A stretch of DNA of 64,000 bases from Terriglobia bacterium (GCA_035712365.1 DASTAW010000058.1:1-64000); one strand, 5' to 3'; shown: positions 22,368 to 51,638, counted from the first letter of the stretch. Notes: generated by a model not told the origin, from the sequence alone. Numbers and translations are program-made.

Positions 22368-22433
22368 CAATCAGCCTGTGCCATTTTCTGCGGGGAGTAG
22401 GACGACCCAAGCTCTTTTTCCCAGGTGAGGCTT

Positions 22434-23576: not shown

Positions 23577-23765
23577 AGATAAATCTTTCCAGTCGGCTGA
23601 ATAAACCTGCAGGTTCCAAACGCACGTGCATCTGGTCCTGGCGTTGATGCAGGCAATGGCAAGCCTGTTTGGTGGCAGGAAGACTGAAGGACCCGCGAAA
23701 TTGACGGAAGGCTCCCTTGAGTTTTCCCTCGGTTCAGCCGGTTCGGACAAAACGGGGGTGTAAAC

Positions 23766-24767
23766 ATGGTTGGCGTTGGAGTAATTGGTTACGGCTATTG
23801 GGGACCCAACATTGTCAGGAATTTGCTGACCCTCGCTGGAGCGAAGGTGGTTGGGATTTGCGACAAGAATCCCGCGGCCCTGCGGCGCGCGGCATCAATC
23901 AATCACGGCACACGGCTGCTGACGGACCCGCAGGAGCTTGTCAGTTCATCTGACGTAGACGCCGTTGCGGTGATTTCGCCGGTTTGGACGCATTATGCGC
24001 TGGCCAAGGCGGCCCTGGAGAATGGGAAGCATGTTTTCGTGGAAAAGCCCTTCACTCGCACGGTAGCTGAGGCTGAGGAACTCATCGAGATTGCTCAGAA
24101 GAAAAACCTGAGGATCATGGTGGACCACACGTTCCTGTTTACGGGCGCCGTCCGAAAAATCCGTGAGTTGATCGACCAGGGAACGCTGGGCACTCTTTAC
24201 TATTACGACTCAATGAGAGTCAACCTGGGGCTGTTCCAGCACGATGTCAACGTCGTCTGGGACCTGGCTCCCCATGACCTCTCCATTCTGGATTACCTGA
24301 TCAGGAAGAATCCCGATGCGATCATCGCTACGGGTGAGCAGCACCTCAACGGCTTTGAGGATGTTGCTTTTATTACGATCTATTTCCCGGGAAACGTGAT
24401 CGCGCATGTCAACGTGAACTGGCTTTCACCCGTCAAGATCCGGACCACCCTGATCGGCGGAGAGAAGAGAATGCTGGTATGGAACGATCTGGAGGCGGAT
24501 GAAAAGATCAAAGTTTACGACAAGGGAGTCGAGATGGGTAACCACGAGGGGGTTTACAACCTGCTTGTGAGCTACCGGTCGGGCGACATGTGGGCGCCCA
24601 AGCTTGAGCAGTGTGAGGCCCTTCGCTCGGAGCTGTCTTATTTCATCAACAGTATCGAGAGCGGCGAAACCCCCTTCAATGATGGAGAGGCCGGCCTGAG
24701 GGTTGTCAGGATGCTCGAGGCGGCAGAGACGTCGCTGAAAAACAAAGGAAAGGCCGTTTATCTATGA
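23766..24767 (+). CDS. WbpB/WlbA-like UDP-sugar 3-dehydrogenase (Gfo/Idh/MocA)
   Basis: NAD-dependent oxidoreductase of 333 residues. The Rossmann motif VIGYGYWGPNIVRN is at about 5-18, EKPFTRT near 95-101, and the WDLAPHDLSILDYL segment carries the catalytic His. The gene is followed with overlap by an acetyltransferase and an aminotransferase, the same trio that oxidises, aminates and acetylates C3 of UDP-N-acetylglucosaminuronic acid in WbpB/E/D pathways. That context makes the 3-dehydrogenase assignment likely, although the superfamily is broad. It shares a 4-base overlap with the next gene. Confidence 0.85.
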   Translation: MVGVGVIGYGYWGPNIVRNLLTLAGAKVVGICDKNPAALRRAASINHGTRLLTDPQELVSSSDVDAVAVISPVWTHYALAKAALENGKHVFVEKPFTRTVAEAEELIEIAQKKNLRIMVDHTFLFTGAVRKIRELIDQGTLGTLYYYDSMRVNLGLFQHDVNVVWDLAPHDLSILDYLIRKNPDAIIATGEQHLNGFEDVAFITIYFPGNVIAHVNVNWLSPVKIRTTLIGGEKRMLVWNDLEADEKIKVYDKGVEMGNHEGVYNLLVSYRSGDMWAPKLEQCEALRSELSYFINSIESGETPFNDGEAGLRVVRMLEAAETSLKNKGKAVYL

Positions 24768-25267
24768 ACGACTTTGTCTGTATTTCCCCTGATGTCAAGC
24801 TCGGATCGGGCGTCAAGCTTTCCAAATTTGTCAACCTGTACGGCTGTGAGATCGGCGACGAAACCAAAGTCGGCGCCTTTGTCGAAGTCCAGAAGAATGC
24901 CAGGATCGGCCGGCGCTGCAAGATTTCGAGCCACACCTTCATTTGTGAAGGCGTAACCATCGAAGACTGCGTGTTTGTCGGGCACGGAGTAACTTTCATC
25001 AACGATAGTTACCCACGGGCGGTCAATCCGGATGGAACGCTGCAGACAGAAAACGACTGGAGGGTTGAGCGAACGCTGATTAAGAGGGGCGCATCAATCG
25101 GTTCAGGCTCAACAATCCTCGCGAATGTGACGGTCGGCGAAAACGCCATCGTCGGGGCCGGGGCCGTCGTAACCAAAGACGTTCCCGCCAACACCATTGT
25201 GGTGGGCAGTCCCGCACGGTTTTTGAGATCAATAGCAATGGGAGGACATAATGGGCACGGCCAATAA
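24764..25267 (+). CDS. WbpD/WlbB-like N-acetyltransferase, left-handed beta-helix
   Basis: Acetyl-CoA-dependent N-acetyltransferase of 167 residues built of hexapeptide repeats: IGDETKVGAFVEVQKNARIGRR, VTIEDCVFVGHGV, and after an insert, ASIGSGSTILANVTVGENAIVGAGAVVTKDVP. The loop with FINDSYPRAVNPDG carries the family's substrate-binding part. It should acetylate the 3-amino group of a UDP-2-acetamido-3-amino-uronic acid. It overlaps both neighbours (4 and 17 bases), so the trio is tightly coupled. Confidence 0.88.
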   Translation: MNDFVCISPDVKLGSGVKLSKFVNLYGCEIGDETKVGAFVEVQKNARIGRRCKISSHTFICEGVTIEDCVFVGHGVTFINDSYPRAVNPDGTLQTENDWRVERTLIKRGASIGSGSTILANVTVGENAIVGAGAVVTKDVPANTIVVGSPARFLRSIAMGGHNGHGQ

Positions 25268-26477
25268 GGTACCGTTTCTCGATTTGAATGGTTTGCACGC
25301 CGAACTTGAAGAAGAACTCGTGGCGGTTTTCAGACGGGCGCTGAAGGCTTCAGCGTTTGTGGGTGGTCCTGAAGTTGAACAGTTTGAAAACGAATTTGCG
25401 CAGTTTTGCGGCGCGGGCCATTGCGTAGGCGTCAACAGCGGCACGGATGCGTTGAGGTTTGCGCTGATCGCTAAGGGTGTCGGCCATGGTGATGCCGTCG
25501 TCACGGTACCCAACACCTTTATTGCTACTGCGGAGGCGATTTCGCAGGCAGGAGCGGTCCCCAGATTTGTTGACGTCGATCCACGGACTTACAACATGGA
25601 TGCTGACCGGTTGCAAGATTATCTGGCGAACAAGTGTTTTGTGGACCGCGCGAGCGGACGGCTGTTTGACTGTGCGACCGGAAACGTGGTGAAGGCCATT
25701 ATCCCGGTACATCTCTATGGCCAGCCCGCGGACATGGATCCTATTCTTGAGGCGGCAGAAAATTATCATCTGACGGTGATCGAAGATGCGTGCCAGGCCC
25801 ACGGCGCGCAGTACTTCTCAAGAACCACCAAGCAGTGGAAAAGGGTAGGATCGATGGGGAGTGCCGCAGCATTCAGCTTTTACCCGGGCAAGAACCTGGG
25901 CGCCTGCGGTGAGGGCGGAGCTGTAACCACGAATGACTCTGAAGTGGCGCGTAAGGTCCGCATGTTGCGCGACCATGGTCAGCCCAGGAAATATTATCAC
26001 GATATGGAAGGCTACAACGGCAGGTTGCATTCCATCCAGGCCGGAATCCTGCGCATCAAGCTGAGGCTGCTCTCCGGCTGGAATGAGAAACGCCGCGAGG
26101 CCGCCAGCCGCTATTGGGAGCTGATGGGCGACGCCAGTGAAGCGATTGTCATGCCTTATCAGCCGGAATGGGCCAGGGCTGTTTATCACCTCTTCGTCGT
26201 ACGAGTGCCGGAACGCGATGACGCGATCGACTTCCTCTCCCAGGCGGGCATTGGGACCGGGATCCATTATCCCATTCCCCTGCACGTGCAAAAGGCCTAC
26301 AGCCGTCTCGGCTATAAGGCCGGCGATTTCCCGGAGGCGGAAAGCGCAGCCGCGGAGATCCTTTCGCTTCCGCTCTTTCCGGGAATCACGATCGAGCAGC
26401 AGAAGCTGGTTGCCGCCGAGTTGCGAGAAGTCATCAGCAGGCTGTCCGGCGACGAGGCCCGCGAGGCTGCGGCCTAG
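25251..26477 (+). CDS. WbpE-like DegT/DnrJ/EryC1/StrS aminotransferase
   Basis: PLP-dependent sugar aminotransferase of 408 residues. The cofactor lysine is K214 in FSFYPGKNLGACGEGG; the EDACQAHGA segment near 179-187 gives the Asp that contacts the pyridine nitrogen. GTDALRFALIAKG near 64-76 is the phosphate-binding turn. GGAGGA precedes the ATG at 25251, inside the end of the acetyltransferase gene. An insertion at about 120-145 (CFVDRASGRLFDCATGNVV) is longer than in most relatives. Expected role: transamination of the 3-keto sugar made by the WbpB-like enzyme, giving UDP-2,3-diamino-uronic acid. Confidence 0.9.
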   Translation: MGTANKVPFLDLNGLHAELEEELVAVFRRALKASAFVGGPEVEQFENEFAQFCGAGHCVGVNSGTDALRFALIAKGVGHGDAVVTVPNTFIATAEAISQAGAVPRFVDVDPRTYNMDADRLQDYLANKCFVDRASGRLFDCATGNVVKAIIPVHLYGQPADMDPILEAAENYHLTVIEDACQAHGAQYFSRTTKQWKRVGSMGSAAAFSFYPGKNLGACGEGGAVTTNDSEVARKVRMLRDHGQPRKYYHDMEGYNGRLHSIQAGILRIKLRLLSGWNEKRREAASRYWELMGDASEAIVMPYQPEWARAVYHLFVVRVPERDDAIDFLSQAGIGTGIHYPIPLHVQKAYSRLGYKAGDFPEAESAAAEILSLPLFPGITIEQQKLVAAELREVISRLSGDEAREAAA

Positions 26478-27850: not shown

Positions 27851-28744
27851 ATGGAAGTTTGCGGCAAACAGATTGTATTTCGCGGAAGGCTGGTCCGCGT
27901 TGCCTACCTTGATGCTGAAGGTTACCAGTTTCTGGACGATCCGGAGGCGGCCCGGACGCTGCTGCTCAAGTCCCGGCCTCGCGCGGACCTGTTAACGTTC
28001 ATCCAGAGGCTTTCCAGCCGCTCGCCCGTTTACAGTTATCCGATGGAATGGGACAACTTTGCCGTTCTCCCGGTTTCCACCTACGATGAATGGACCGCAA
28101 ACCAGGTGAATAACAAGACGAGGAACATGATTCGGAAGGCTGAGAGGAAGGGCGTCACGCTACGGGAGATACCGTTTGACGAGGCCCTCATTCGCGGAAT
28201 TCACGCCATCTACAATGAGTCGCCCATCCGTCAGGGCAGGCGGTTCCGGCATTACGGCAAGGACCTCGACACCGTGCGGAGGATGACGGCGACTTACCTG
28301 GACCAGAGCATCTTCATCGGGGCGTTTTTCCAGGATGAGATGATCGGCTTTATAAAGCTTGTGACCGACGAGAACCGGACGCAGGCGGGCCTGATGCATA
28401 TTGTTTCCATGAGCGAACACCGGGACAAGGCTCCGACGAACGCGGTGATTGCGCAGGCTGTGCGGTCGTGCGCCGAGCGGGGCATCCCCCAACTATGGTA
28501 CGCAAACTTCTCCTATGGCAGGCGGGAAGGCGACACTCTGGCCGACTTCAAGAAGCACAACGGGTTCCAGAAAGTCGAAGTTCCCAGATACTACGTTCCG
28601 CTGACGCTTGTGGGAAGCGCCGCCCTCCGGCTGGGCCTCCATCACAGCCTTCTGGAGCTGGTCCCCGCTCCGGTGGTCGTGCGATACCGCAAGATCCGGA
28701 GTCTCTGGTACGCAAGAAAATTTGCCGGCCAGGAAAACGCCTAG
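27851..28744 (+). CDS. FemAB/GNAT-like acyltransferase, EPS-associated
   Basis: Protein of 297 residues with the double-GNAT architecture of FemAB-like transferases. The central segment (about 80-125) with NQVNNKTRNMIRKAERKGVTLRE is the typical helix pair, and FIGAFFQDEMIGFIKLV followed by PTNAVIAQAVRSCAERG is the acetyl-CoA-type strand and helix. In cell walls such enzymes add amino acids from aminoacyl-tRNA; many EPS loci contain relatives of unknown substrate. A second FemAB-like protein is encoded at 37223. Modification of an amino sugar in the repeat unit is the best guess. The start follows from the ATG at 27851; no better upstream codon exists. Confidence 0.8.
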   Translation: MEVCGKQIVFRGRLVRVAYLDAEGYQFLDDPEAARTLLLKSRPRADLLTFIQRLSSRSPVYSYPMEWDNFAVLPVSTYDEWTANQVNNKTRNMIRKAERKGVTLREIPFDEALIRGIHAIYNESPIRQGRRFRHYGKDLDTVRRMTATYLDQSIFIGAFFQDEMIGFIKLVTDENRTQAGLMHIVSMSEHRDKAPTNAVIAQAVRSCAERGIPQLWYANFSYGRREGDTLADFKKHNGFQKVEVPRYYVPLTLVGSAALRLGLHHSLLELVPAPVVVRYRKIRSLWYARKFAGQENA

Positions 28745-28818
28745 ACGCGGGCCGCGGGCGGGGAACGCCGGCCCTGCGCAGCCGCATGCGAATTCGAAAG
28801 CCAAGGTCAGATACCGTT

Positions 28819-30642
28819 ATGCCTGGAATAGTCGGTTTCATCACCAAAGCGCCGCGCCAAAGTGCCGGGCCGCATCTTCACCGGATGGTCGAGGCCATCA
28901 ACCACGAGTCCTTTTACTCCACCGGAACCTGGATTGAAGAGTCTCTGGGCGTTTATGTGGGCTGGGCCGTGCAGAAGAATTCCTTTTCTGACGGACAACC
29001 TCTGATTAATGAGCGGCAGGACGTTGTTCTGGTGTTTTCGGGTGAAGAGTACCCCGAGCCGGGAACGGCCGGCCGCCTCATCAGCCGCGGACATCAGTTC
29101 GATGCCAAAGGCCCTTCCTACCTGGTCCACGTTTATGAAGACGATCCCAAGTTTCCGGCGGGTTTGAACGGCCGGTTCCACGGGCTCTTGATTGACCGGC
29201 GGCAGGGGAAGGCGCTGCTCTTCAACGATCGCTATGGAATGCACCGGCTCTATTTCCACGAAGCGCAGGACACCTTCTATTTTGCCGCGGAAGCCAAGGC
29301 AATCCTGGCCGTCCGCCCGGAGCTGCGCAAACTCGACCTGCAAGGGGTTGGAGAGTTTATCTCGTGCAGTTGCCCGCTTGACAACCGGACGATGTTCGAG
29401 GGCATCAGCCTCGTGCCGGGCGGGGCCGCCTGGGAATTCCGGAACGGGCCAGTTCCTCGAAAGCGCTCGTATTTTGATGTCCGTGAATGGGAAGAGCAGT
29501 CTCCTCTGAGCGCCGAGGAATACTATCAGCAACTGCGGGAAGCTTTTACCCGCAACCTGGGCCGCTACTTCAACGGCCGGCAGAAGGTAGGTGTTTCTCT
29601 CACTGGCGGCATGGACACGCGGGTGATCATGGCCTGGCGAAAGGCCGAAGCCGGCTCACTGCCCTGCTACACCTACGGCGGAATGTTCCGCGACTGCCGC
29701 GACGTGCAGGTGGCGCGGGAGGTGGCGGGCATCTGCCATCAGTCCCACAGCGTGGTGGAAGTGGGCAAGGATTTCCTTTCGCAGTTTCCGCGCTATGCGG
29801 AACGCAGCGTTTACCTGAGCGACGGCAGCGTGCACGTCAGCCGCGCCGCAGACCTTTACGTCAGTGAAAAGGTGCGCGACATAGCGCCCGTGCGGATTGC
29901 AGGCACTTACGGCAGCGAAGTGCTCACCCAGGCGCCCATGTTCAAGCCCGTTGACCCCATGCCCGGCCTGTTCCAGCCGGAACTGAGCGCCGGCATCGAG
30001 CAGGCAAAGGCGACTTATGCGAGGCTTCGCCGGCGGCATCCCGTCACCTTCGCCGCATTTCTGCAGTCGCCCTGGTGGCACTATGGAGTTCTGGCGCTCG
30101 AGCAGAGCCAACTGAGCGTCCGTTCGCCTTATCTTGACAATGATTTCGTGCGCGTTGTTTACCGCGGGCCGAAGGCGCTGGACATGACGCGCGACGTCCG
30201 CTGGCGGATGATCTCGGACGGTAATCCGGCGCTGGCCCGGGTGCCCAGCGACCGCGGCGTCAATGGTCTCAAAGGGCAGGTGACAACCATGCCCTCGCGC
30301 CGCTTCCACGAGTTCACCTTCAAGGCGGAATACGCTTACGACTACGGCATGCCCCAGTGGCTGGCAAAGCTCGATCATATCTTCTCGCCGCTGCACTTCG
30401 AGCGGCTTTTCCTTGGCCGGCACAAATTCGCGCACTACCGGGTCTGGTACCGGGACGGCCTCTCGAATTACCTCCGGGAAGTGCTGCTGGACCCGCGCAG
30501 CCTTGCCCGGCCCTATGTGAAAAAGAAAGCGCTGGAAGCCGTGGTCGACGGCCACCTCAAGGGAAACCGCAACTATACGCTTGAGCTGCACAGACTGCTG
30601 AGTCTGGAGCTTCTGCACCGCCAGTTTATTGACGTGCACTAG
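28819..30642 (+). CDS. Asparagine-synthase-like amidotransferase lacking the glutaminase Cys
   Basis: Two-domain protein of 607 residues resembling asparagine synthetase B. The N-terminal Ntn-hydrolase-like half (about 1-190) includes the RFHGLLIDRRQGKALLFNDRYGMHRLYF core. The second half has the ATP-pyrophosphatase loop LTGGMDTR near 260-267. The mature protein begins Met-Pro-Gly-Ile; the catalytic Cys normally at position 2 is replaced by Pro, so glutamine hydrolysis should be lost. It may use free ammonia or another amine, or form acyl-adenylates in EPS modification. The frame is open from 28468, but the ATG at 28819 aligns with the family start and the upstream codons overlap the FemAB-like gene. 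No strong ribosome site is visible. Confidence 0.88.
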   Translation: MPGIVGFITKAPRQSAGPHLHRMVEAINHESFYSTGTWIEESLGVYVGWAVQKNSFSDGQPLINERQDVVLVFSGEEYPEPGTAGRLISRGHQFDAKGPSYLVHVYEDDPKFPAGLNGRFHGLLIDRRQGKALLFNDRYGMHRLYFHEAQDTFYFAAEAKAILAVRPELRKLDLQGVGEFISCSCPLDNRTMFEGISLVPGGAAWEFRNGPVPRKRSYFDVREWEEQSPLSAEEYYQQLREAFTRNLGRYFNGRQKVGVSLTGGMDTRVIMAWRKAEAGSLPCYTYGGMFRDCRDVQVAREVAGICHQSHSVVEVGKDFLSQFPRYAERSVYLSDGSVHVSRAADLYVSEKVRDIAPVRIAGTYGSEVLTQAPMFKPVDPMPGLFQPELSAGIEQAKATYARLRRRHPVTFAAFLQSPWWHYGVLALEQSQLSVRSPYLDNDFVRVVYRGPKALDMTRDVRWRMISDGNPALARVPSDRGVNGLKGQVTTMPSRRFHEFTFKAEYAYDYGMPQWLAKLDHIFSPLHFERLFLGRHKFAHYRVWYRDGLSNYLREVLLDPRSLARPYVKKKALEAVVDGHLKGNRNYTLELHRLLSLELLHRQFIDVH

Positions 30643-30687
30643 CAGCCGGTTTTGTTGCTTTGCGACACCCGCAAAGCATGGAAATGG

Positions 30688-30749
30688 CCCCTCACCCGCC
30701 CTTCTTCGTCGGTGGTCCCGCCTTGCGGGATAGCGAGCCAGGTGAGGGG
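30688..30749. repeat. REP-like nested inverted repeat
   Basis: CCCCTCACC (30688-30696) and GGTGAGGGG (30741-30749) are perfect arms around an inner hairpin TCCCGC-ctt-GCGGGA (30716-30730). The nested palindrome lies in the short gap before the O-antigen ligase gene and resembles dispersed REP-type elements. It may also slow or stop transcription. Confidence 0.6.
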
Positions 30750-30765
30750 TATTTATGGGAATTTT

Positions 30766-32172
30766 ATGAGTTCCATGGCCACACTTGCTGTCGGGTTTGG
30801 GATTCTGGCGCTTTTCGCGCTTTACTGGGACCCCAAGTCGCGGACCTCGCCGGCCCTTTGGATTCCCACGGCCTGGATCCTGCTGGCAGGGTCGCGGATG
30901 GTCTCCCTGTGGTTCGAGAATCCCACCGACGAAATGATGCGGACCGCGAGCCAGGCTGGGGAAGGCAGCCCGCTCGACCGCCTGGTCCTTACCGGCCTGC
31001 TGATGCTGGGGATCATCGTGCTGATGTGCCGGGTGCACCGGGTGGCGCGGCTGCTGAAAATGAACTGGCCCCTGCTGGCCTTTTTCGGTTACTGCGCTCT
31101 CAGCGCCTTCTGGTCCGCCACTCCCGACCTGGCCCTGAAGAGATGGTTCAAAGCGATTGGCGACGTGGTGATGGTCGTCATTATTCTCACAGACCGGAAC
31201 CGGACAGAAGCGATCAAGCGAATCATCACGCGGGTGGCCTTTATCCTGATGCCGCTCTCCGTGCTGCTGATCGAATTCTATCCCAGCATCGGGCGCGCCT
31301 ACGACCTTGAAGACGGGTATGTCACCAACATCGGCGTCACCACCAACAAGAACATGCTGGGGGTCATCTGCCTGGTTGCCGGGCTTGGCTGCGTGTGGCT
31401 GTTCATCAAGGCGATGCGCGACAGCCGGCGAAGGAACCGCCAACTGCTGGCGCTCGGGGCGGCCCTGGCAGTCATCGCGTGGCTTTTTGCGGTAACCAAT
31501 TCCATCACCCCGCTGTTCTGCTTTGTGACGGGAGCGATGCTGATTGTGATGGTGAACCTGCCCGGCACCCGCAAGCCGTCCAACGTGCACATCGCGGTTG
31601 CGGCAATGCTTTTCGCGGCCTGCCTGGTTTTCGTTTTTCCGGAAATATTCACGTCCATCATTCACCTGTTTGGACGCAACTCGACGCTGACCGGCAGGAC
31701 CGATCTCTGGAAGGCCCTGACGGGCATGGATACCCACCCCTGGCTTGGCGCCGGATTCGAGAGTTTCTGGCTGGGGAACCGGCTGGAACAGCTTTGGAGC
31801 ATTTTCTCCTGGCAGCCTAACGAGGCGCACAACGGTTATCTGGAAGTTTACCTCAACCTGGGATGGGTGGGAGTGCTGCTGCTCGCCAATCTGCTGGTGA
31901 CGGGTTACCGGCACCTGATTGAGGTCTATCGGCGCGACCCGATGGCCGGCAGCCTCAGGCTGGCCTATTTTTCCGCCGCTGCCGCCTACAACCTGGCGGA
32001 AGCAGGCTTCAGGATGCTCGATCCCATGTGGATTTTTCTTCTGCTTGCCATCATGGCGGTGCCCGACACTACCACTCGTGAGGTATGGGAACTTCCGCTC
32101 GATGAATCACAGGTGCTGGTTCCCGTGGGCTATCCGGATGACGATGAACAGGTTTTTGCGAGGAGCTATTGA
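30766..32172 (+). CDS. O-antigen ligase/polymerase family membrane protein (Wzy/WaaL-like)
   Basis: Multispanning inner-membrane protein of 468 residues with about 11-12 hydrophobic helices. The large periplasmic loop between about 300 and 350 contains LTGRTDLWKALTGMDTHPWLGAGFESFW, the pattern of the Wzy_C domain. It should polymerise or ligate the repeat unit. The ATG at 30766 has GGGA five bases before it and begins a membrane helix; the frame is open from 30652 across the REP-like element, which argues against a longer protein. It overlaps the flippase gene by 4 bases (TTGA). Confidence 0.88.
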   Translation: MSSMATLAVGFGILALFALYWDPKSRTSPALWIPTAWILLAGSRMVSLWFENPTDEMMRTASQAGEGSPLDRLVLTGLLMLGIIVLMCRVHRVARLLKMNWPLLAFFGYCALSAFWSATPDLALKRWFKAIGDVVMVVIILTDRNRTEAIKRIITRVAFILMPLSVLLIEFYPSIGRAYDLEDGYVTNIGVTTNKNMLGVICLVAGLGCVWLFIKAMRDSRRRNRQLLALGAALAVIAWLFAVTNSITPLFCFVTGAMLIVMVNLPGTRKPSNVHIAVAAMLFAACLVFVFPEIFTSIIHLFGRNSTLTGRTDLWKALTGMDTHPWLGAGFESFWLGNRLEQLWSIFSWQPNEAHNGYLEVYLNLGWVGVLLLANLLVTGYRHLIEVYRRDPMAGSLRLAYFSAAAAYNLAEAGFRMLDPMWIFLLLAIMAVPDTTTREVWELPLDESQVLVPVGYPDDDEQVFARSY

Positions 32173-33791
32173 GGCCCTTCGACGCGCAGGGAATGTTCCA
32201 TCCCGTGGCCGGCGGCCACGACGAACTGCGGCGCCTTGCCGTGCGCGGCGCCGGGGCCTCGATTTCTGCCCAGGGCCTGTCTCTGGGTGTCCAGGTGGTG
32301 GCCACCGTGGTGCTGGCCCGCCTGCTGGCACCAGCGGACTTCGGCATCGTGGCGATGGTCACCACCTTCAGCCTGCTGGTGATGAATTTCGGGCTGAACG
32401 GTTTCACCGAAGCGGTTGTCCAGACCGAGGAGATCAACCGGGCGCTGGCCAGCAATCTGTTCTGGATCAATCTGGGCGCCAGCCTTCTGCTGACCCTCGC
32501 GTTTGCGGGCGCAGGCTCGCTGCTGGCGTGGTTTTACGGCGACCCGCGCGTAACGGCCGTCAGCATCGGAGTTTCACTCACCATTTTTATTACCGGCGCC
32601 TCGGTGCTGCACCTGGCGCTGCTGAAGCGGGCCATGGAATTTCCGGCGATTGCCGTCCTCAACATTGCGGCCCGCGGCGTTTCAGTCGCCCTATCGATCG
32701 TGCTTGCCTGGATGGGGTGGGGATATTGGGCGCTGGTGGCCGGGACCGTGGCCCTGCCGCTCAGCACCACGGTTGGCGCATTTTTTCTTTGCCCGTGGGC
32801 GCCCGGGCTTCCGCGCCGCGCCGCCGGGACGGCCAGGCTGGTGCGCTACGCCATCAACGTTTACGGCCATTTCACCGTGAATTATTTCGCCCGCAACATG
32901 GACAACGTGCTGGTGGGATGGCGCTTCGGAGCGGGGCCGCTCGGCTTCTACAAGAAGGCTTATGACCTTTTCGCGCTCTCTTCCAACCAACTCGTCTCAC
33001 CGCTGGCCGTGGTTGCCGTCGCGGCCTTGAGCCGGTTGAAGGACGACGTGCTGCAATACCGGCGGTACTTCCTGAGGTCGCTGGCGCTGCTGGCTTTTGT
33101 GGGAATGGGAATTGGCGCGGACCTCTGCCTGGTGGGCAAAGACCTCATCCGCGTGGTGCTGGGGCCGGGATGGGACGAAGCGGGCCAGATCTTTGTCTAC
33201 TTCGGGCCGGGCATTGGCGTGATGCTGCTCTATTACACGCATGGCTGGATGCATCTTTCGATTGGAACGGCGAACCGCTGGTTTCGCTGGGGCTTGATCG
33301 AGTTTGGCGTCACCGCCCTGCTGTTTGTCCTCGGGCTCCGGTGGGGGCCGGTTGGAATTGCGATGGCGTGGACGGCCTCATTCTGGATCCTGATGCTCCC
33401 CTCGTTCTGGTATGCGGGCAAGCCCATCGGCTTCGGAATCAGGCCCGTGCTGGAAACCATCTGGCGGTACATCGCCGCCTCGGTGCTGGCGGGCTGCGCC
33501 TCCGGCTGGCTGGCGTGGCATTTCCATCCTTTCGGCACGGCTGAGGGCATTGGCGACGCGCTGGCGCGGATGACGACGGTTTCTCTTCTGTTCGGCGCTC
33601 TTTATCTCATGGCGGTGGTGGCCCTGTTCCGAAGCTTCGAGCCTCTGTATCAGTTGCTCAAGCTTTTGCCCGACCTGCTTCCTTCGCGCCGCTCTCCGAA
33701 GCCGGCTGCCGCTACCGCTTCCAGCGGGCTCCGCGAGGGTGGGGTGCTCAGGCCCGCCGGCGAAGAAATTCCAGAATTGAGCGGGAGGTAA
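32169..33791 (+). CDS. Wzx-like oligosaccharide flippase (MOP superfamily)
   Basis: Lipid-linked oligosaccharide flippase of up to 540 residues with about 12-14 membrane helices. It starts with the family's ISAQGLSLGVQVVATVVLARLLAPADFGIVAMV and has the FARNMDNVLVGWRFGAGPLGFYKKAYDLF segment near 240-268. The TTG at 32169 overlaps the stop of the ligase gene and has AGGAG just before; an ATG at 32193 is an alternative. It should move undecaprenyl-linked repeat units to the periplasmic face for the Wzy-like polymerase. The Pro/Ala-rich C-terminal 40 residues are cytoplasmic and variable. Confidence 0.92.
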   Translation: MRPFDAQGMFHPVAGGHDELRRLAVRGAGASISAQGLSLGVQVVATVVLARLLAPADFGIVAMVTTFSLLVMNFGLNGFTEAVVQTEEINRALASNLFWINLGASLLLTLAFAGAGSLLAWFYGDPRVTAVSIGVSLTIFITGASVLHLALLKRAMEFPAIAVLNIAARGVSVALSIVLAWMGWGYWALVAGTVALPLSTTVGAFFLCPWAPGLPRRAAGTARLVRYAINVYGHFTVNYFARNMDNVLVGWRFGAGPLGFYKKAYDLFALSSNQLVSPLAVVAVAALSRLKDDVLQYRRYFLRSLALLAFVGMGIGADLCLVGKDLIRVVLGPGWDEAGQIFVYFGPGIGVMLLYYTHGWMHLSIGTANRWFRWGLIEFGVTALLFVLGLRWGPVGIAMAWTASFWILMLPSFWYAGKPIGFGIRPVLETIWRYIAASVLAGCASGWLAWHFHPFGTAEGIGDALARMTTVSLLFGALYLMAVVALFRSFEPLYQLLKLLPDLLPSRRSPKPAAATASSGLREGGVLRPAGEEIPELSGR

Positions 33792-41147: not shown

Positions 41148-41272
41148 TGTCTGACCGGCCCCGCCGGATGCTGCGCGGCGCTCCACACTCTCAGCCCAAC
41201 AAGGATTTACCGCAGGACCCTTTGGGACCGGGGTGAAGATTCAGGTCCAAAAACCGGGAGGGCAATTCTGAG

Positions 41273-43843: not shown

Positions 43844-44707
43844 ATGGCAACAACCAATGCAAGACCCGTGAATGTAGTACCGATCAATTCAACACCCGCA
43901 GGCGTTATGCCCAGTACCAGCGGCTACCTGCGGTTGATAGGTGTATCGAGCCTGCCGCCGCTCACCACGCCGTTCGATCCCGGCTACGATCCGGGCACGC
44001 TCGAGAGCCATCTCGACCAGAGCGCCCACCTCATGGCAGGCCTGAAGATTTCGATGGCGTGCTGGATGATCGCCGACGAAAGAGCTACGCGCCGGAAGGT
44101 CGCAGCAGCGCGGGCCCATCGCGTGCCCACCTGCACGGGAGGCGGACCTTTTGAGGTTGCTGTGGCCCAGGGGCAACTCGAAGCATACCTGGACCTGTGC
44201 GCGGACATCGGCGTTTTGCGTATCGAGTGCGGCGAGGGATTCACCGAGCTGAATCGCAAGCCCCGCGAGATCTTTCGACTGGCGCAGGAGCGCGGACTGG
44301 AAGTCCAGTACGAAATGGGAAAGAAACACGAGGGGCCGTTCAGCGAGGAATCGCTTGAAGATACCATAGCGCGGGGACACGCCTGGCTGGACGCCGGGGC
44401 GATGGAGCTGATTGTCGAAGCGCGCGAAAGCGCTTCCGGCGTGGGCCTTTTCGGGACCGACGGGTCCCTCAACGCCGCGTTCGCAGACCGCTTCGCCGAG
44501 GAATTTGGCCTTGACATTGCGACTTTCGAGGCGCCCAACAAGCCCAGCCAATTCGCATTGCTGGAGCACTTCGGAAATCGTGTGCGCCTCAGCAATGTTC
44601 GCCTGGAAGAGTTGCTGCGCGTCGAGATCTATCGCCGCGGCCTGCACTCTGATGCGTTTGAAAAGCCGAACCTTCGCCCAGCATCTCCAGGGACCCGGGG
44701 AATATAA
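43844..44707 (+). CDS. comA: Phosphosulfolactate synthase
   Basis: Expected to add sulfite to phosphoenolpyruvate, giving (R)-2-phospho-3-sulfolactate. It has 287 residues, a little longer than archaeal ComA because of about 40 extra N-terminal residues. The TIM-barrel motifs are clear: CTGGGPFEVAVAQG, QYEMGKKHEGPF, IVEAREASG-type segment (VEARESASGVGLFG) and ATFEAPNKPSQFALLEHFG...RLSNV, then RRGLHSDAF at the end. The N-terminal DKG-type motif is altered. comB follows after 4 bases. Archaea use this step for coenzyme M; in Bacillus it makes sulfolactate. The ATG at 43844 has GGGAGGG upstream at a longish 12-base spacing. Confidence 0.9.
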   Translation: MATTNARPVNVVPINSTPAGVMPSTSGYLRLIGVSSLPPLTTPFDPGYDPGTLESHLDQSAHLMAGLKISMACWMIADERATRRKVAAARAHRVPTCTGGGPFEVAVAQGQLEAYLDLCADIGVLRIECGEGFTELNRKPREIFRLAQERGLEVQYEMGKKHEGPFSEESLEDTIARGHAWLDAGAMELIVEARESASGVGLFGTDGSLNAAFADRFAEEFGLDIATFEAPNKPSQFALLEHFGNRVRLSNVRLEELLRVEIYRRGLHSDAFEKPNLRPASPGTRGI

Positions 44708-44711
44708 GGAA

Positions 44712-45428
44712 ATGGCGCCAGCAGACGGCAAGGTGGTTGTGATTGACTGCTTCCCGGAGAGTGTCGAGTCCCATCAGGATGAAGACGCGATCATCGCAGT
44801 CGATGTCATCAGGGCAACGACGGTGGTTGTGACCGCTGTTGCCCGGGGTCGAAAGTGTTTTCCGGTGCCAACCCTCGAGGCCGCCGTGGCCCTCGCCGGC
44901 GAGCTTTCCAATCCGTTGCTCGTCGGCGAACTCGGCGGCAATATGCCGTTCGGCTTCCACTTGAACAACAGCCCGGCCGAGATCGATCTCAGGACCGATA
45001 TCGACCGGCCCATGGTGCTTCTTTCGACGTCGGGTTCAAGGCTGATCTGCGCCGGAAACCAGTCGCAATCAATGTACGTAGCCTGCCTTCGCAACTGGAA
45101 GGCCGCCGCCGGCCAGTTGAGAAACCGACACCGGAAAATTGCGGTGATCGGCGCGGGGGCCAGAGGTGAGTTCCGAGAGGAGGACGAACTCTGTTGCGCA
45201 TGGATTGCCGAGGAGCTTGTGGGCCTCGGGTTCGAAGCGCAGGACAAAAAGACGGCAGATATCATCAGTAAATGGAGCGGGGCGCCTCTCGAGGAGATAA
45301 CCCGTGGCGCCAGCGCTGATTATCTGCGTCGCACTGACCAGACGAGAGATCTGGATTTCATCGTTACCCATGTTAATGATTTGGATCGGGTCTACAGGTT
45401 TGAAAGGGGAGGGGTGATCGAGGAATGA
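44712..45428 (+). CDS. comB: 2-phosphosulfolactate phosphatase
   Basis: Removes phosphate from 2-phosphosulfolactate to give sulfolactate; 238 residues, the family norm. Motifs match ComB: IIAVDVIRATTVVVTAVARGRKCFPV (about 27-52), LVGELGGNMPFGFHLNNSPAEI (GNSP changed to NNSP), a VLLSTSGSRLI turn, and a C-terminal HVNDLDRVYRF. A frame open from 44412 runs across comA and is rejected as start. AAGGA is only two bases from the ATG at 44712, so translation probably depends on coupling to comA. It overlaps the ATP-grasp gene by 4 bases. No comC- or comDE-like gene is present, so the product is probably not coenzyme M. Confidence 0.88.
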   Translation: MAPADGKVVVIDCFPESVESHQDEDAIIAVDVIRATTVVVTAVARGRKCFPVPTLEAAVALAGELSNPLLVGELGGNMPFGFHLNNSPAEIDLRTDIDRPMVLLSTSGSRLICAGNQSQSMYVACLRNWKAAAGQLRNRHRKIAVIGAGARGEFREEDELCCAWIAEELVGLGFEAQDKKTADIISKWSGAPLEEITRGASADYLRRTDQTRDLDFIVTHVNDLDRVYRFERGGVIEE

Positions 45429-46699
45429 GAGAGCAAACGGTGCTTGTAGGGCCGGTACAGGAACCACGGCCCGCCGTGAAGGCGCTTCAGCCTTCGCGGG
45501 CAATGGATGCGTTGAATACTTCGGTTCCGGCCGTCGTGATTGCGCCAGGGTATCATGGCCATGCGATTGCGCGGAGCCTGGGCCGTCTCGGCATCAGCGT
45601 GTACGGGGTCCATGGCGACCCTCGGTCACCAGCCGCGCGATCGCGATATTGGAAAAAGAACATCTTCTGGGCGCTTTCCCAGCATCCCGCGAGTGCGTCG
45701 GTTGACCGACTGCTGGAACTCAGCCGCGAAATCGGCTGTCATCCGATTCTCCTGCCCACCGATGACGATAGCTGTCTTTTTGTGGCGGACCACGCGGAGA
45801 AACTGAAACAGGGGTTCCTGTTTCCCGATCAGCCGGCAGGGCTGGCCCGCGCCCTTTCCAGCAAGGAATCGATGTATGACCTGTGTGAGCAGTTTTCAAT
45901 CCCGACGGCCCACACCACTTTTCCACATTCACGTGATGATGTCATGGAGTATCTGGAAACTGCGACCTTCCCGATCATGTTGAAGGGCATCAATACGGTC
46001 GCCCTGCTTCGCCACGCCGGCGCCAGGATGGCCCTTGTGCAAGACCAGGCGACGTTGTTGAAGCTTTACGATGAGTGGGAGACGCCTGAGTCGCGCAACC
46101 TGATGCTTCAGGAATACATTCCCGGCTCTTCGGAAATGATCTGGATGTTTAACGGATACTTTGACGATCGTTCGGAGTGTCTTTTTGCCGTCACGGGACA
46201 GAAAATCCGCCAATACCCTGCCTACAAGGGAGTAACCAGCCTGGGGATTTGCGTCACCAACGACGCGGTTATCAGGGCGACCCAGGACTTCATGAGGGCG
46301 GTTGGCTACAGAGGCGTCCTGGATATTGGATACAAGTACGATGCCCGGGACGGCCAGTACAAGCTCCTCGACGTCAACCCGCGTACGGGCGTCACCTTCC
46401 GCTTATTTGTTGACAGTGATGGGACTGACGTGGTGCGCGCCCTCTATCGTGATTTGACGGGCCAGCCGGTGCCGAGAGCGCTGCCCAAAGACGGCAGGAA
46501 GTGGATGGCAGAAAATTTTGACTTCATTTCTTCTGCCATCAGCCTGCGCGATGGCTCCCTGGGAGTGGCAGGATGGCTGCGGTCCTTGCGAAACCTGGAG
46601 GAAACCTCCTGGTTTGCTGCCGATGATCTTCGCCCCTTCCTCGCAATGGCCGGGCATTCCTTTCACTGGCTATTCAAGCGGAACTCAAATCATCGTTAA
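45425..46699 (+). CDS. ATP-grasp carboxylate-amine ligase-like protein
   Basis: ATP-grasp enzyme of 424 residues. A pre-ATP-grasp Rossmann-like domain (VVIAPGYHGHAIARSLGRLGISVYGV, about 37-62) is followed by the ATP-grasp half with a P-loop-like FPIMLKGI segment near 180-187, LMLQEYIPGSSEMIWMFNGYFD near 230-251, and the metal-binding YKLLDVNPRTGVTF near 315-328. Such ligases join a carboxylate to an amine through an acyl-phosphate. Coupling to comB by a 4-base overlap makes sulfolactate, or something derived from it, a natural candidate acyl donor; this is inference. The C-terminal 90 residues are less conserved. Confidence 0.85.
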   Translation: MREQTVLVGPVQEPRPAVKALQPSRAMDALNTSVPAVVIAPGYHGHAIARSLGRLGISVYGVHGDPRSPAARSRYWKKNIFWALSQHPASASVDRLLELSREIGCHPILLPTDDDSCLFVADHAEKLKQGFLFPDQPAGLARALSSKESMYDLCEQFSIPTAHTTFPHSRDDVMEYLETATFPIMLKGINTVALLRHAGARMALVQDQATLLKLYDEWETPESRNLMLQEYIPGSSEMIWMFNGYFDDRSECLFAVTGQKIRQYPAYKGVTSLGICVTNDAVIRATQDFMRAVGYRGVLDIGYKYDARDGQYKLLDVNPRTGVTFRLFVDSDGTDVVRALYRDLTGQPVPRALPKDGRKWMAENFDFISSAISLRDGSLGVAGWLRSLRNLEETSWFAADDLRPFLAMAGHSFHWLFKRNSNHR

Positions 46700-46817
46700 A
46701 TCCATAGGGCCGGTTTCAGCGCCGGTCTGATTTCTGGCGCATGCTGTAAATGGCGCACGGTCGATCTTGATGGGTGAACGGCCGAATGACCAAAATCGTC
46801 TTCATGAGGGACATTCC

Positions 46818-47708
46818 ATGGGCCCAGTTACCAAATTGTCGTCTGCAGCGGCGGGAAAGCGCACGCCGTCAGAAGCAGCCATTCCACTGGAAAATGAACA
46901 GAGGTCTGTTTCTGACTATTTCGACTCTGGATCATCTTACTGGCAGGGACTTTACAGCGGTAATGATGTTTTTGCGATTATTCATCAACAGCGCCGCTCG
47001 ATGGCCCTGCAATACTTTGACGGGCTGTCGCTGCCCAAAACAACGCGCGTGCTGGAAGTTGGGTGTGGCGCCGGCTTGCTGACCGTGGACCTCGCCCGGC
47101 GTGGGTATACCCTGGAGGCGCTCGATCAAGCCAAATCAATGATTGACCTGACGCGCCGCAATGCGCTCCAGTGCGGTCTGGAAGACCGCGTGAAAGCTCA
47201 TATCGGCGATATCTGCCGATTGCCCTTTGGCGATGCAACTTTCGGATGTCTGATCGCCCTGGGCGTTTTACCGTGGGTCGCGAACATCCATGCCGCATTG
47301 AAGGAGGTTTCCAGAGTCCTGGTTCCCGGTGGTTACGCAATCTTTAACGTAGACAATCGGCATCGTCTCAATCACCTCCTTGATCCCGCCGATATGCCTG
47401 CCCTGTCCTGGCTAAAAGCCAGATTGAAGAAGCCGCTTCACCGGTTCCAGTTGCGCAAGCCTCCAAGGGCGCCTGACGTGTATCGGTACACCCTTAAAGA
47501 ATTCGACCAGCTTCTCACCTCGGCTGGATTGGTGCGGGTCAAATGCCGCATGATCGGCTTCGGCCCATTTTCCTTTTTCAAGTACGAACCCTTTTCCGGC
47601 GCGATCGGGGTAAAGCTGCACCATCGATTACAGCATTACTCAGACCGGGGATTGCCGCTGTTGCGGTCAACCGGGGCCCAAATCCTGGTTGCTGGCAGGA
47701 AGTCGTAA
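46818..47708 (+). CDS. SAM-dependent class I methyltransferase
   Basis: About 296 residues with a class I methyltransferase fold: motif I VLEVGCGAGLLTVDLA near 75-90, an acidic residue in LEALDQAKSMIDL after strand 2, and IALGVLPWV as the post-motif strand. The substrate part is C-terminal, with a long basic loop and an aromatic KCRMIGFGPFSFFKYEP segment. The ATG at 46818 has GAGGG seven bases upstream; ATG at 46770 is an alternative. It sits between the ATP-grasp ligase and the LarA-like gene, so methylation of the same product (carboxyl, hydroxyl or amine) is likely. No closer family was recognised. Confidence 0.85.
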   Translation: MGPVTKLSSAAAGKRTPSEAAIPLENEQRSVSDYFDSGSSYWQGLYSGNDVFAIIHQQRRSMALQYFDGLSLPKTTRVLEVGCGAGLLTVDLARRGYTLEALDQAKSMIDLTRRNALQCGLEDRVKAHIGDICRLPFGDATFGCLIALGVLPWVANIHAALKEVSRVLVPGGYAIFNVDNRHRLNHLLDPADMPALSWLKARLKKPLHRFQLRKPPRAPDVYRYTLKEFDQLLTSAGLVRVKCRMIGFGPFSFFKYEPFSGAIGVKLHHRLQHYSDRGLPLLRSTGAQILVAGRKS

Positions 47709-47720
47709 GGGACCCTCGCG

Positions 47721-49148
47721 ATGTTGTCTGGGCCATCTGATATGAAATCAACAACAATCCTGCGGACAGCCGCGTGGTATGGAGACAGGGAGATCCGGTT
47801 GGACTTTCCTCCGTCCTGGGAGGTCAAGGTCCTGTCGCCAGATACTCCTCCGCCTCTGACCGAACAGGAAATCATTGAAAAACTCGAACACCCCGTGAAC
47901 CAGCCGTCATTTCGCAAGATCTGCGAAGGCAAATCGCGGCCGGCCATTATTGTGGATGACCTGAACCGGCCTACGCCCGCGGGTCGCGTTGTGCCGCTAT
48001 TGCTGCAGCGCTTTCGAGAAGCTGGCATCCCAGCGCAAAATGTCACGGTTGTGATGGCGACCGGCACTCACGGCCAACCCATGCCGGACGCGATGCTGAA
48101 GAAGATCGGGCCTGAAGCCGCATCGAGTTGCCGGCTTGTGGCCCACGACTGCTTCCGGGACGTGAAACGGATTGGCAGAACAACCCTGGGAACGCCGGTT
48201 TTTGTAAACCAGAACATCCTGGATTGTGACCTGGTCATCGGGGTGAGCGGAATTTATCCGAACCATACAGCCGGCTTCGGCGGCGGATCAAAGCTCGCGT
48301 TGGGCATCCTGGGTATCCGGTCCATCTACCATCTGCATTTTCGCCATCTGCCTGCCAGTTGGGGAGGCGACGCGGTTCGCCAACCTATTCGCCGGGAATT
48401 GGATGAAATTGCCGGCATGATCGGGATGAAAACGGTCATTTCGCTGATGATCGATTCCCACCGCGAAGTCATTCAAATATACTGTGGAGATCCGAGAGAG
48501 TATTTTCATGAAGCTGTGGCATACGGCCGCAACATCTTCCGCGCCTGTCATCCTCCCGATGCCGATGTCATCATTGCCAATACGTATCCAGACGATTTGT
48601 CGCTGACGATGGCGCGCATGAAGGGATTTGTCCCTCTGAGGCATCCCGGCAACGGCGCGTCAAAAGTTGCGATTGCTTCGTGCAGCGAGGGTCCCGGCCT
48701 TCACAACATCTTTCCCTTCGTGAATCTGCCGCCCCATTACCGTACGCGGCACATGCTAAGGCGCCTCTCGGTCATTTCCCTGGACGAATTGTCGGCGAAG
48801 GGCAGAAGCTATTTGAAACGAAAATTTTGGGACCGAACAGGAAAAATGCGAATTGCCGATGCCACTTCAAATGGCAACTCGCACCACACGAACCACCCGG
48901 TATGGTTGTACCGGCCTGGAAATCAAACGGAACGTCTGCCTTCCAGCGCGCCGGGAATCAATTTGGTCAACAATTGGTCCGCAGTTGTGGAGGCGGTCCA
49001 AAGAGAACAGGCCGGCAAAGATCGGCTGAAGGTCCTGCTGTACGCGTGCGCACCCCTTCAGGTGCCGGAATGCGTGGCCCAGCATGAGGCTGCGTTGCAG
49101 AGCCATTTTTGGAATTCGACTGAAACCATCGGCAGGGACGTCGCTTAA
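47721..49148 (+). CDS. LarA-type nickel-pincer racemase/epimerase (DUF2088)
   Basis: Lactate-racemase family protein of 475 residues. Residues expected for the nickel-pincer cofactor and proton shuttle can be aligned: R83 in LNRPTP, H117 in TGTHGQP, H142 in VAHDCF, H182 in YPNHTAGFGGGSK, K191 in the same motif (covalent cofactor site) and a His cluster at 204-209. Relatives racemise various 2-hydroxyacids. Sulfolactate is a 2-hydroxyacid made by the neighbouring comAB products, so sulfolactate racemisation is an attractive hypothesis. Cofactor genes larB, larC and larE are not in the window. AAGGGA eight bases upstream supports the ATG at 47721. Its TAA stop is supplied by a dispersed repeat. 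Confidence 0.85.
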   Translation: MLSGPSDMKSTTILRTAAWYGDREIRLDFPPSWEVKVLSPDTPPPLTEQEIIEKLEHPVNQPSFRKICEGKSRPAIIVDDLNRPTPAGRVVPLLLQRFREAGIPAQNVTVVMATGTHGQPMPDAMLKKIGPEAASSCRLVAHDCFRDVKRIGRTTLGTPVFVNQNILDCDLVIGVSGIYPNHTAGFGGGSKLALGILGIRSIYHLHFRHLPASWGGDAVRQPIRRELDEIAGMIGMKTVISLMIDSHREVIQIYCGDPREYFHEAVAYGRNIFRACHPPDADVIIANTYPDDLSLTMARMKGFVPLRHPGNGASKVAIASCSEGPGLHNIFPFVNLPPHYRTRHMLRRLSVISLDELSAKGRSYLKRKFWDRTGKMRIADATSNGNSHHTNHPVWLYRPGNQTERLPSSAPGINLVNNWSAVVEAVQREQAGKDRLKVLLYACAPLQVPECVAQHEAALQSHFWNSTETIGRDVA

Positions 49149-49416: not shown

Positions 49417-50238
49417 ATGCAGAAACACAGTAGAGTTGTTGTTGTTGGACTCGGAGAGATAGGAAAACCACTTCTTGAGTTGATTTCCAAGAACCATGAT
49501 GCCGTGGGTGTGGACATCTCTCCAGTTAAGGGGACCAAGCGGGTGGACATCATGCATGTGTGTTACCCCTACCAAATCAGTGATTTTGTCGGCGAGACAG
49601 CCCGGTACATCAAACTTTTCAGGCCCAGTCTGACCATTATCAATAGCACTGTGCCAGTTGGCACCACCCGATCGATCGCTGAGCGGAGCGGTGCTGCTGT
49701 CGTGAACAGCCCAGTGCGTGGCAAGCACATTCGTATGCTGGATGACCTTGGCGCCTACACCAAGTTCGTGGGTGCCATTGATTCCTCAGCCGCCGAGCGG
49801 GCAGCAAATCACTTTGCGTCCATAGGCTTGAAGACCAGGATCCTCTCATCGCCCGAGTCGACTGAGCTGGCAAAGCTGACGGAAACAACCTATTTCGGTG
49901 TTTTGATTGCCTGGGCCCAGGAAGTCGAAAGGTATTGTGACCAGTCGGGGGTGGATTACGACGAAGTCGCCGCGTTCTATGAAGAGATCAAGTTCTTGCC
50001 GCCGGTAAAATACTTTCCGGGCGTCATTGGGGGACATTGCGTGATGCCCAACATCAAGATTCTCCAGAAGTGGACCCAATCGGCGATGCTCGAAGCCATT
50101 CAGATCTCCAATCAGGTGAAGGTCGAACGAGACGCTCAGCAAATAACGATACGGACCAACCTGGCGGCAGGGGCTGCTCCCAACAGCCTTGAGAGCGCGA
50201 AGAACACTCTGCCACGTGTTTCCCGGAGGCAATCATGA
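49417..50238 (+). CDS. Short UDP-sugar dehydrogenase-like protein
   Basis: Protein of 273 residues from the UDP-glucose/GDP-mannose dehydrogenase family. It has the NAD-binding N-terminus (VVVVGLGEIGKPLLEL, 7-22), the STVPVGTTRSIAE segment, the central helix ELAKLTETTYFGVLIAWAQEVE and the catalytic cysteine C208 in GVIGGHCVMPN. Family members have about 400-450 residues; the C-terminal UDP-binding domain is absent, and the Rossmann part is shortened. It is either a compact enzyme with a non-nucleotide substrate or a remnant. It overlaps the next glycosyltransferase by 4 bases, so the frame is maintained and coupled. GGAGG and AAGG precede the ATG. Confidence 0.82.
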   Translation: MQKHSRVVVVGLGEIGKPLLELISKNHDAVGVDISPVKGTKRVDIMHVCYPYQISDFVGETARYIKLFRPSLTIINSTVPVGTTRSIAERSGAAVVNSPVRGKHIRMLDDLGAYTKFVGAIDSSAAERAANHFASIGLKTRILSSPESTELAKLTETTYFGVLIAWAQEVERYCDQSGVDYDEVAAFYEEIKFLPPVKYFPGVIGGHCVMPNIKILQKWTQSAMLEAIQISNQVKVERDAQQITIRTNLAAGAAPNSLESAKNTLPRVSRRQS

Positions 50239-51638
50239 ACGCAACATTGGGGCATTTTCTCTCGACGCAGCCGCTGGGACACGGGCCCGGCACGACAGGG
50301 TCCAATCCTATGAATTTCACTGTTCCTTCCCCATCTGGCGGGAAGGCAGCGCCCTCGAACCTGGCAGGGAAAAGAGTGGCCATGGTAACGTTCTCGACCT
50401 TCCCAGGGGACCCGCGCCCGCGCAGGGCTGTGAATGCATTGCTTGGCCAGGGCATGACAGTGGACCTTATATGTCTTGGCAACGGAGATGCCCCGAGGCA
50501 TGAAATCCTGAATGGAATGCGCATCCTCCGGTTTCCGCTCAAGAGCCGCCGTGGCAACAAATTCATGTATGTCTGGAATTATTGTGCATTCATCTTGTTC
50601 TCGGCCTGCGTGTTGGCGCGGCGGTCCTTTCAACGCCGCTACGACATGGTCCACATTCACAACATGCCTGATGTCCTTGTTCTGAGCGCCTTGGTGCCCA
50701 AGGCGCTGGGTTCAAAAGTCCTGCTTGACATGCACGATCCCATGCCCGAACTCATGAAGACCATTTACAACCTGGACGACAATTCGTTGAGCGTCCGCCT
50801 CATCCAGTGGCTCGAGAAGTGGAGCATCGGCCGGGCCGATTTCGTGCTGACGGTTAATGCTGCTTGCAAACGTATTTTCGCCTCGCGCAGCTGTCCGCAG
50901 AGCAAAATCGAGGTTGTGATGAATTCCCCCGACGAACAGGCCATTCCGATTCGGTCTCCTCACTCGTATAAGAAGGCTGGCCATGCGCCGCCCAAACCTT
51001 TTGTGATCATGTATCACGGATCATTGGTCGAAAGAAACGGCCTGGGCCTGGCAGTGGATGCTCTCGTTCAGGTTCGTCGAAAAGTTCCCGGCGCCGAAAT
51101 TAAAATCTGCACGGTTGAAACTCCTTACCTCCATAAAGTAATGGACAAGGCACGCAGGCTTGGGTTGGAAGATCGTGTGCATTTTTTGGGATCGAAGCGG
51201 GCCGGAGAACTTGGCAAAGAAATTGAAAGCTGCGATCTTGGAATCGTTCCAAACCAGCGGAATGCCTTTACGGAGATTAATACACCAAACCGGATTTTTG
51301 AGTTCCTATCCATGGGTAAACCTGTTATTGCCCCGCGTACTCGAGGCGTCCAGGATTACTTCAGCCCAGACTCGCTGTTCTTCTTTGAAGCGGGGAACGC
51401 AGACGACCTTGCCCGAATGATTGAATACGTTGCATTTCACTCCAACGAGGCGATCGAGAGGGTTGAACGGGGTCAACAGGTTTACCTGAAACACACCTGG
51501 TCACGGGAAAGCGGAGTGTTTGTGGGCGTGGTCGAGAGGCTTTTGAACGGTCGGCGGCCACGGTTGCGCTCAGACACCGCCGTTCGTCCGGGCAACGCTT
51601 CTTTGGGAGAATCCTTACCGAACGATCGGTATTCGTAA
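50235..51638 (+). CDS. Glycosyltransferase family 4-type protein
   Basis: GT-B fold glycosyltransferase of 467 residues. An N-terminal extension of about 45 Gly/Pro/Ser-rich residues precedes the acceptor domain (RVAMVTFSTFPGDPRPRRAVNALLGQGMTVDLICLG). The donor domain has VIMYHGSLVERNGLGLAVDAL near 257-277 and TEINTPNRIFEFLSMGKPVIAPRTRGVQDYF near 340-370, where the Glu residues of the family's E-x7-E site are found. ATGA overlap with the preceding gene. It should add a sugar to the EPS repeat unit; an internal start near 50310 or 50383 cannot be excluded. Confidence 0.9.
   Translation: MNATLGHFLSTQPLGHGPGTTGSNPMNFTVPSPSGGKAAPSNLAGKRVAMVTFSTFPGDPRPRRAVNALLGQGMTVDLICLGNGDAPRHEILNGMRILRFPLKSRRGNKFMYVWNYCAFILFSACVLARRSFQRRYDMVHIHNMPDVLVLSALVPKALGSKVLLDMHDPMPELMKTIYNLDDNSLSVRLIQWLEKWSIGRADFVLTVNAACKRIFASRSCPQSKIEVVMNSPDEQAIPIRSPHSYKKAGHAPPKPFVIMYHGSLVERNGLGLAVDALVQVRRKVPGAEIKICTVETPYLHKVMDKARRLGLEDRVHFLGSKRAGELGKEIESCDLGIVPNQRNAFTEINTPNRIFEFLSMGKPVIAPRTRGVQDYFSPDSLFFFEAGNADDLARMIEYVAFHSNEAIERVERGQQVYLKHTWSRESGVFVGVVERLLNGRRPRLRSDTAVRPGNASLGESLPNDRYS

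Follow-up and report, generated by a model that had tools for sequence, protein, structure and literature searches.

A recurrent ComA-ComB-ATP-grasp gene cassette in bacterial surface-polysaccharide clusters that may supply a sulfolactate-derived glycan substituent

What could genes for ComA- and ComB-like enzymes be doing inside a polysaccharide cluster of a Terriglobia bacterium? The window, i.e. the whole stretch of 64,000 nucleotides analysed here (GCA_035712365.1, DASTAW010000058.1:1-64000), belongs to one of the 65 contigs that make up a genome of 4.67 Mb, and a congeneric genome carries the label Acidobacteria. At 43844-49148 five genes follow each other on the + strand as an operon-like run of open reading frames (ORFs), and ORFs, Pfam and modelling confirm the gene identities given in a preliminary description of the locus. 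The first, comA (43844..44707), encodes a ComA-like phosphosulfolactate synthase of the cassette type described below (PF02679, 148 bits at a cut-off of 25.2). It is separated by 4 bases from the gene for a ComB-like 2-phosphosulfolactate phosphatase (44712..45428; PF04029, 122 bits at a cut-off of 26.4), which in turn overlaps by 4 bases with the gene for an ATP-grasp carboxylate-amine ligase-like protein (45425..46699, start possibly at 45503). Two short gaps then set off the genes for a class I SAM methyltransferase (46767..47708, exact start unsure; Pfam 70.6 bits, cut-off 21.2) and for a LarA-like nickel-pincer enzyme whose second catalytic His is replaced by Asn (47742..49148, ORF opening at 47721; PF09861, Lar_N, 142.9 bits, cut-off 23.3). 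An ORF start for ComB at 44412 was rejected as an artefact of an open frame inside comA, as homologues begin at the residue equivalent to 44712. Promoter and terminator scans returned chance level only.

The five-gene run of the window represents one form of a mobile biosynthetic cassette with a near-constant ComA-ComB-ATP-grasp core. When an alignment of cassette-type ComA was used to scan one genome per species (about 85,000 species), 81 cassette loci were confirmed, of which the 80 listed span 13 phyla (Acidobacteriota 18, Pseudomonadota 13, Actinomycetota 11, Chloroflexota 10, the rest in nine smaller groups). ComB is found in all 77 listed loci that extend past ComA, the remaining three ending there, and in 68 of the 80 it is the next gene on the same strand at a distance of less than 200 bases. 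The ATP-grasp gene is present in 69 of the 80 listed loci, several of the others being cut by contig ends, and a methyltransferase related to that of the window in 38. LarA accompanies 16 of the 80, i.e. about one in five, in at least six phyla (Acidobacteriota, Zixibacteria, Nitrospirota, Actinomycetota, Chloroflexota and Thermodesulfobacteriota), and is thus an optional member. In seven LarA loci the methyltransferase gene directly adjoins LarA, six times on the same strand in the order of the window (methyltransferase, then LarA) and once divergently, and the two therefore form a recurrent pair. As ComB, ATP-grasp and LarA genes recur across many phyla, the grouping is not a matter of chance, and the functional unit assumed in the preliminary description is supported. 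At loci with other types of ComA, the cassette queries found nothing except weak ComA similarity. Three archaeal-labelled loci (L073, L074, L089) possibly represent mis-binned contigs and were left out as evidence.

Within the closer kinship of the source genome the cassette is patchy, as expected for a mobile trait. Among 101 genomes of relatives, source genome included, eight carry cassette-type ComA, and when 396 genomes were sampled evenly across the phylum, cassette-type ComA, like cassette-type LarA, was found in the source genome only, an observation that is consistent with this but carries no statistical weight. Judged by the 101 genomes, LarA would seem to be confined to the window, a view that the scan of about 85,000 species ruled out.

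Do ComA and ComB of the cassette look functional? The 15 polar positions that are identical in Methanocaldococcus jannaschii ComA and Bacillus subtilis YitD, and that are shared by the ComA of the window, are kept at 99-100% in 74 cassette ComA proteins, and the alignment of ComB likewise preserves the Asp, Arg, Glu, Asn-Ser-Pro and second Asp. Thus, the conserved polar residues of the characterised relatives have not been lost in either protein. As the window ComA scores 142 bits against the TIGR03849 equivalog cut-off of 280 bits, we class it as ComA-like rather than as an equivalog; ComB exceeds the PF04029 cut-off and falls below the NCBIfam equivalog cut-offs. Moreover, the loop following Lys43 consistently reads SMACW in cassette ComA versus GWGTS in the known enzymes and, because this conserved loop is rewritten, we can only presume sulfite to be the co-substrate. 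Together with the score below the equivalog cut-off, the altered loop would fit a ComA that uses another nucleophile and yields a different 3-substituted lactate without any sulfonate. Such an activity seems unlikely to us, given that cassette ComA retains each of the 15 polar positions common to M. jannaschii ComA and YitD and that the ComB phosphatase is always alongside. With sulfite as the presumed co-substrate, ComA would combine it with phosphoenolpyruvate and ComB would then remove the phosphate, giving (R)-, i.e. L-sulfolactate.

Sulfolactate made in this way is unlikely to be destined for coenzyme M, as already supposed from the lack of the downstream genes next to the cassette. No ComD was found in the genome, and matches to ComE were below cut-off and confined to long frames of the size of TPP enzymes, and coenzyme M biosynthesis was rejected on these grounds.

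By Pfam the ATP-grasp protein is a borderline case (20.2 bits, cut-off 19.8). An AlphaFold model based on an alignment of 46 sequences (mean pLDDT 91.1) predicts a full ATP-grasp ligase fold, with the L-amino acid ligase 3vot as top match in the PDB and PurK and PylC among the best structural matches. The nucleotide- and metal-binding residues are conserved, K147, K187, D316, N318 and R320 being invariant in the 46 sequences. By its modelled fold the protein is thus an ATP-grasp ligase, a fold that names no substrate. It might activate the carboxylate of sulfolactate with ATP and join it to an amine, most likely that of an amino sugar or of a short amino-acid linker, and the methyltransferase might cap a hydroxyl or amine of the resulting group.

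The role of the LarA-like protein is less straightforward. Its assignment rests on PF09861, a structural model and a table of key residues in LarA_Ip numbering. According to this table Asp70, Arg73, His107, Lys183 and His199 are kept in all 17 cassette proteins compared, and Lys298 is kept in the complete ones. Position 173, which lies in a gap-free stretch and is aligned in the same way by HMMER, is occupied by Asn (6) or Gln (11) in 17 of 17, and all five non-cassette LarA proteins in the same alignment have His there. The residue following position 173 is mostly His, with L046 (Asn) and L110 (Gln) as exceptions, and is therefore not a strict replacement. Hence, the key His, Lys and Arg residues attributed to the protein at the outset are present as far as the Arg, the first His, the cofactor Lys and the nickel-binding His are concerned, whereas the second catalytic His is not, and we refer to the protein as LarA-like instead of racemase. 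The larB, larC and larE genes, whose presence elsewhere in the genome had been raised as a question, are all there with scores above the curated cut-offs.

These findings bear on the route suggested initially, in which sulfolactate is racemised by LarA to the D-form before it is ligated and methylated. Under the CIP rules (R)-sulfolactate corresponds to the L-form, and the product of ComA and ComB is L-configured. For two other LarA proteins with Asn at position 173 it was argued in 2025 that His107 is responsible for D-substrates and His173 for L-substrates, and that such single-His enzymes could act in one direction only (PMC12611868). With His173 replaced in 17 of 17 cassette proteins and ComA/ComB delivering the L-form, the very base expected for L-sulfolactate would be missing; in addition, Tyr294 is changed to Thr and Gln295 to Phe or Met, and most listed loci manage without LarA altogether. 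On the residue table we reject a canonical racemase, and the sequences lend no support to a simple racemisation of free sulfolactate by two bases. The recurrence of LarA in the cassette across at least six phyla, the presence of larBCE and the fact that the closest characterised relatives are malate racemases, malate resembling sulfolactate, do speak for the racemisation route, as does a mandelate-racemase-superfamily gene after the ATP-grasp gene in seven other loci, and yet we consider this route quite improbable. Instead, the LarA-like enzyme, with one catalytic His and a nickel-pincer site, may carry out an optional stereochemical or redox change at a 2-hydroxyacid carbon. The LarA superfamily papers searched make no mention of sulfolactate or polysaccharide.

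The seven loci just mentioned are mainly proteobacterial and include Bradyrhizobium elkanii WSM2783; in each a gene of the mandelate-racemase/enolase superfamily lies 3' of the ATP-grasp gene (L043, 12830-13990; L052; L055; L059; L064; L071; L083). The encoded proteins are 68-79% identical to the L043 copy, which closely resembles a putative dehydratase of known structure (2poz). Read against the motifs of the family, the sequence contains the His-Asp dyad and lacks the second Lys of the KxK motif. The LarA-like and the mandelate-racemase-like protein each have a single likely base. The two genes never occur together in the 80 listed loci, although numbers are small and clumped by lineage, and a replacement of LarA by the mandelate-racemase-like gene is unproven for the same reason. 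Like LarA, the mandelate-racemase-like protein might act on a 2-hydroxyacid as an optional step.

What is the acceptor of the putative acyl group? Here, the surroundings of the cassette are informative. Upstream on the + strand, NCBIfam matches identify genes for a sugar-phosphate transferase, a UDP-GlcNAc 3-dehydrogenase-like protein, a hexapeptide acetyltransferase and a DegT aminotransferase (22425..26477), which constitute an amino-sugar route, and these are followed by genes for an XrtA-type amidotransferase-like protein (NCBIfam), an O-antigen ligase/polymerase-like membrane protein recognised by eye and a MOP flippase, again by NCBIfam (28468..33791, + strand; ORFs). On the 3' side of LarA (49417..51638, + strand) lie genes for a small nucleotide-sugar dehydrogenase-like protein, assigned by Pfam and NCBIfam, and for a glycosyltransferase, assigned by similarity to other loci and by eye. 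Because of the amino-sugar genes in this polysaccharide cluster an amine acceptor for the ligase is plausible, albeit not proven.

Directly 5' of the cassette, at 40039-43749 and still inside the polysaccharide cluster, hemB, hemA and a UbiD-family gene are located. Only the N-terminal and central domains of UbiD are matched and the protein ends where the cassette starts, and hence it looks truncated. A 604-residue protein encoded at 38292-40106 has no match in Pfam or NCBIfam and shows weak similarity to PaaK-like phenylacetate-CoA ligase (E 3e-4), making it a possible candidate for an adenylate-forming, acyl-activating enzyme.

The setting in an exopolysaccharide (EPS) cluster, pointed out in the preliminary description, extends far beyond the window. 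A seed search within 10 kb for glycosyltransferases, Wza, Wzc, Wzx, Wzy, sugar transferases and related proteins found at least one glycan gene in 42 of the 49 cassette loci that span at least 15 kb and in none of 10 control loci (152.7 kb), which carry other types of ComA or lar genes. These controls are few and come partly from the same genome. Among 116 flanking proteins from 24 loci glycosyltransferases top the Pfam tally. Some cassette loci, by contrast, have no glycan gene within reach and, as ATP-grasp ligases often make dipeptides, the cassette might alternatively produce a small free sulfonate, e.g. a sulfolactyl-amino acid that serves as osmolyte or is secreted, with the glycan setting reflecting shared horizontal transfer. 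In line with this, 15 loci contain a second ATP-grasp gene near the cassette (e.g. L085, 11466-12578), in several of them directly 3' of LarA, whose product is similar to cyanophycin and N-acetylglutaminylglutamine (NAGGN) synthetases. That 42 of the 49 long loci, drawn from many phyla, are associated with glycan genes and 0 of 10 controls are argues against a free sulfonate, which we therefore regard as a rather remote explanation, and for a cell-surface polysaccharide as the destination.

The genome itself offers a second example, as it contains three PF02679 genes. One lies on contig C16 in a second cassette copy within a second polysaccharide cluster. In syntenic relatives of this copy, genes for NusG-like, UDP-sugar dehydrogenase, epimerase and sugar transferase proteins are found 5' of the order methyltransferase-ComA-ComB-ATP-grasp, and genes for flippase-like, kinase-like, FkbM methyltransferase, glycosyltransferase and Wzy proteins 3' of it. 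On C16, the comB that would lie between comA and the ATP-grasp gene survives in fragments only (L016, 8558-8900), and thus the ComB of the window may serve both copies. A tree of ComA places the window copy with Chloroflexota (Ktedonobacter, L039; SH-aLRT 81-86, not strong) and the C16 copy with Acidobacteriota. The third gene, on contig C3 (L025, 8070-8912), has the best Pfam ComA score of the paralogues and no glycan genes around it. Of the 15 shared polar residues at least five are missing from its product, K137, R170, E171, K209 and Q212 among them, and since these are present in the known enzymes its annotation as phosphosulfolactate synthase is doubtful.

Taken together, we observe which genes are present, that they are conserved across phyla and lie in a glycan setting, and that conserved residues and the cofactor genes are there; what the substrates are, in which order the steps run and where the group is finally attached we infer. 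That the ComA-ComB-ATP-grasp cassette makes a sulfolactate-derived group which the ATP-grasp ligase couples to a surface glycan is a proposal we hold to be evenly poised. Tentatively, and with somewhat less confidence, we speculate that this is a widespread bacterial route for decorating surface polysaccharides with a sulfolactate-derived, i.e. sulfonate-bearing, acyl group, based on a new ComA clade and a dedicated ATP-grasp ligase, joined in some lineages by a new single-His nickel-pincer enzyme; such a group would be a polysaccharide substituent of a new kind. The cassette is widespread and apparently undescribed: in the non-subscription papers searched, we found neither a description of it nor a relevant paper linking phosphosulfolactate synthase or sulfolactate to polysaccharide. 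If correct, the proposal would add a third, structural use of ComA/ComB-derived sulfonates to coenzyme M and spore sulfolactate, equip the slime of bacteria from soil and groundwater with an acidic group that has a C-S bond, reveal a possible unrecognised source of environmental sulfolactate and point to a reaction for a LarA subgroup for which we found none. B. elkanii WSM2783 is a cultured host that bears the cassette.

How does the cassette compare with known systems? XrtA/PEP-CTERM-type EPS clusters have similar sugar transferase, amidotransferase, FemAB-like and glycosyltransferase genes to those in the window and other loci, although the matches in the window stay below the equivalog cut-offs and a ComA cassette is not known to be part of that system. 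The archaeal coenzyme M pathway of M. jannaschii employs the same ComA and ComB families with the same polar residues (29% identity for ComA), but the cassette has ATP-grasp, methyltransferase and LarA genes instead of comD/comE, and a glycan setting. YitD-type ComA makes spore sulfolactate in Bacillus; it belongs to the same family and has the same polar residues, whereas cassette ComA forms a separate clade (23% identity) with other operon partners. A ComA-family gene likewise lies in a bacterial gene cluster on a plasmid of Methylocystis iwaonis (L131, NZ_AP027143.1), where a different ComA is found beside genes for adenylosuccinate/argininosuccinate lyase-like and PLP enzymes, none of which occur in the cassette; we take this layout to be that of bacterial coenzyme M operons and the plasmid genes to be probably of the coenzyme M type. 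The malate racemases LarAH5/6 and Mar2 are the nearest characterised LarA proteins and have the cofactor Lys, the nickel-binding His, the Arg and the first His in common with cassette LarA, which, in contrast, reaches 178 bits against the equivalog cut-off of 500 bits and has its second catalytic His replaced. Finally, in the single-His enzymes LarA_Sp and LarA_Bw (PMC12611868) an amide also takes the place of the second catalytic His, Asn there and Asn or Gln in the cassette, but these distant relatives (E 7e-09) have Lys at the position of Arg73, which the cassette proteins keep, and their context is sugar catabolism, unlike that of the cassette.
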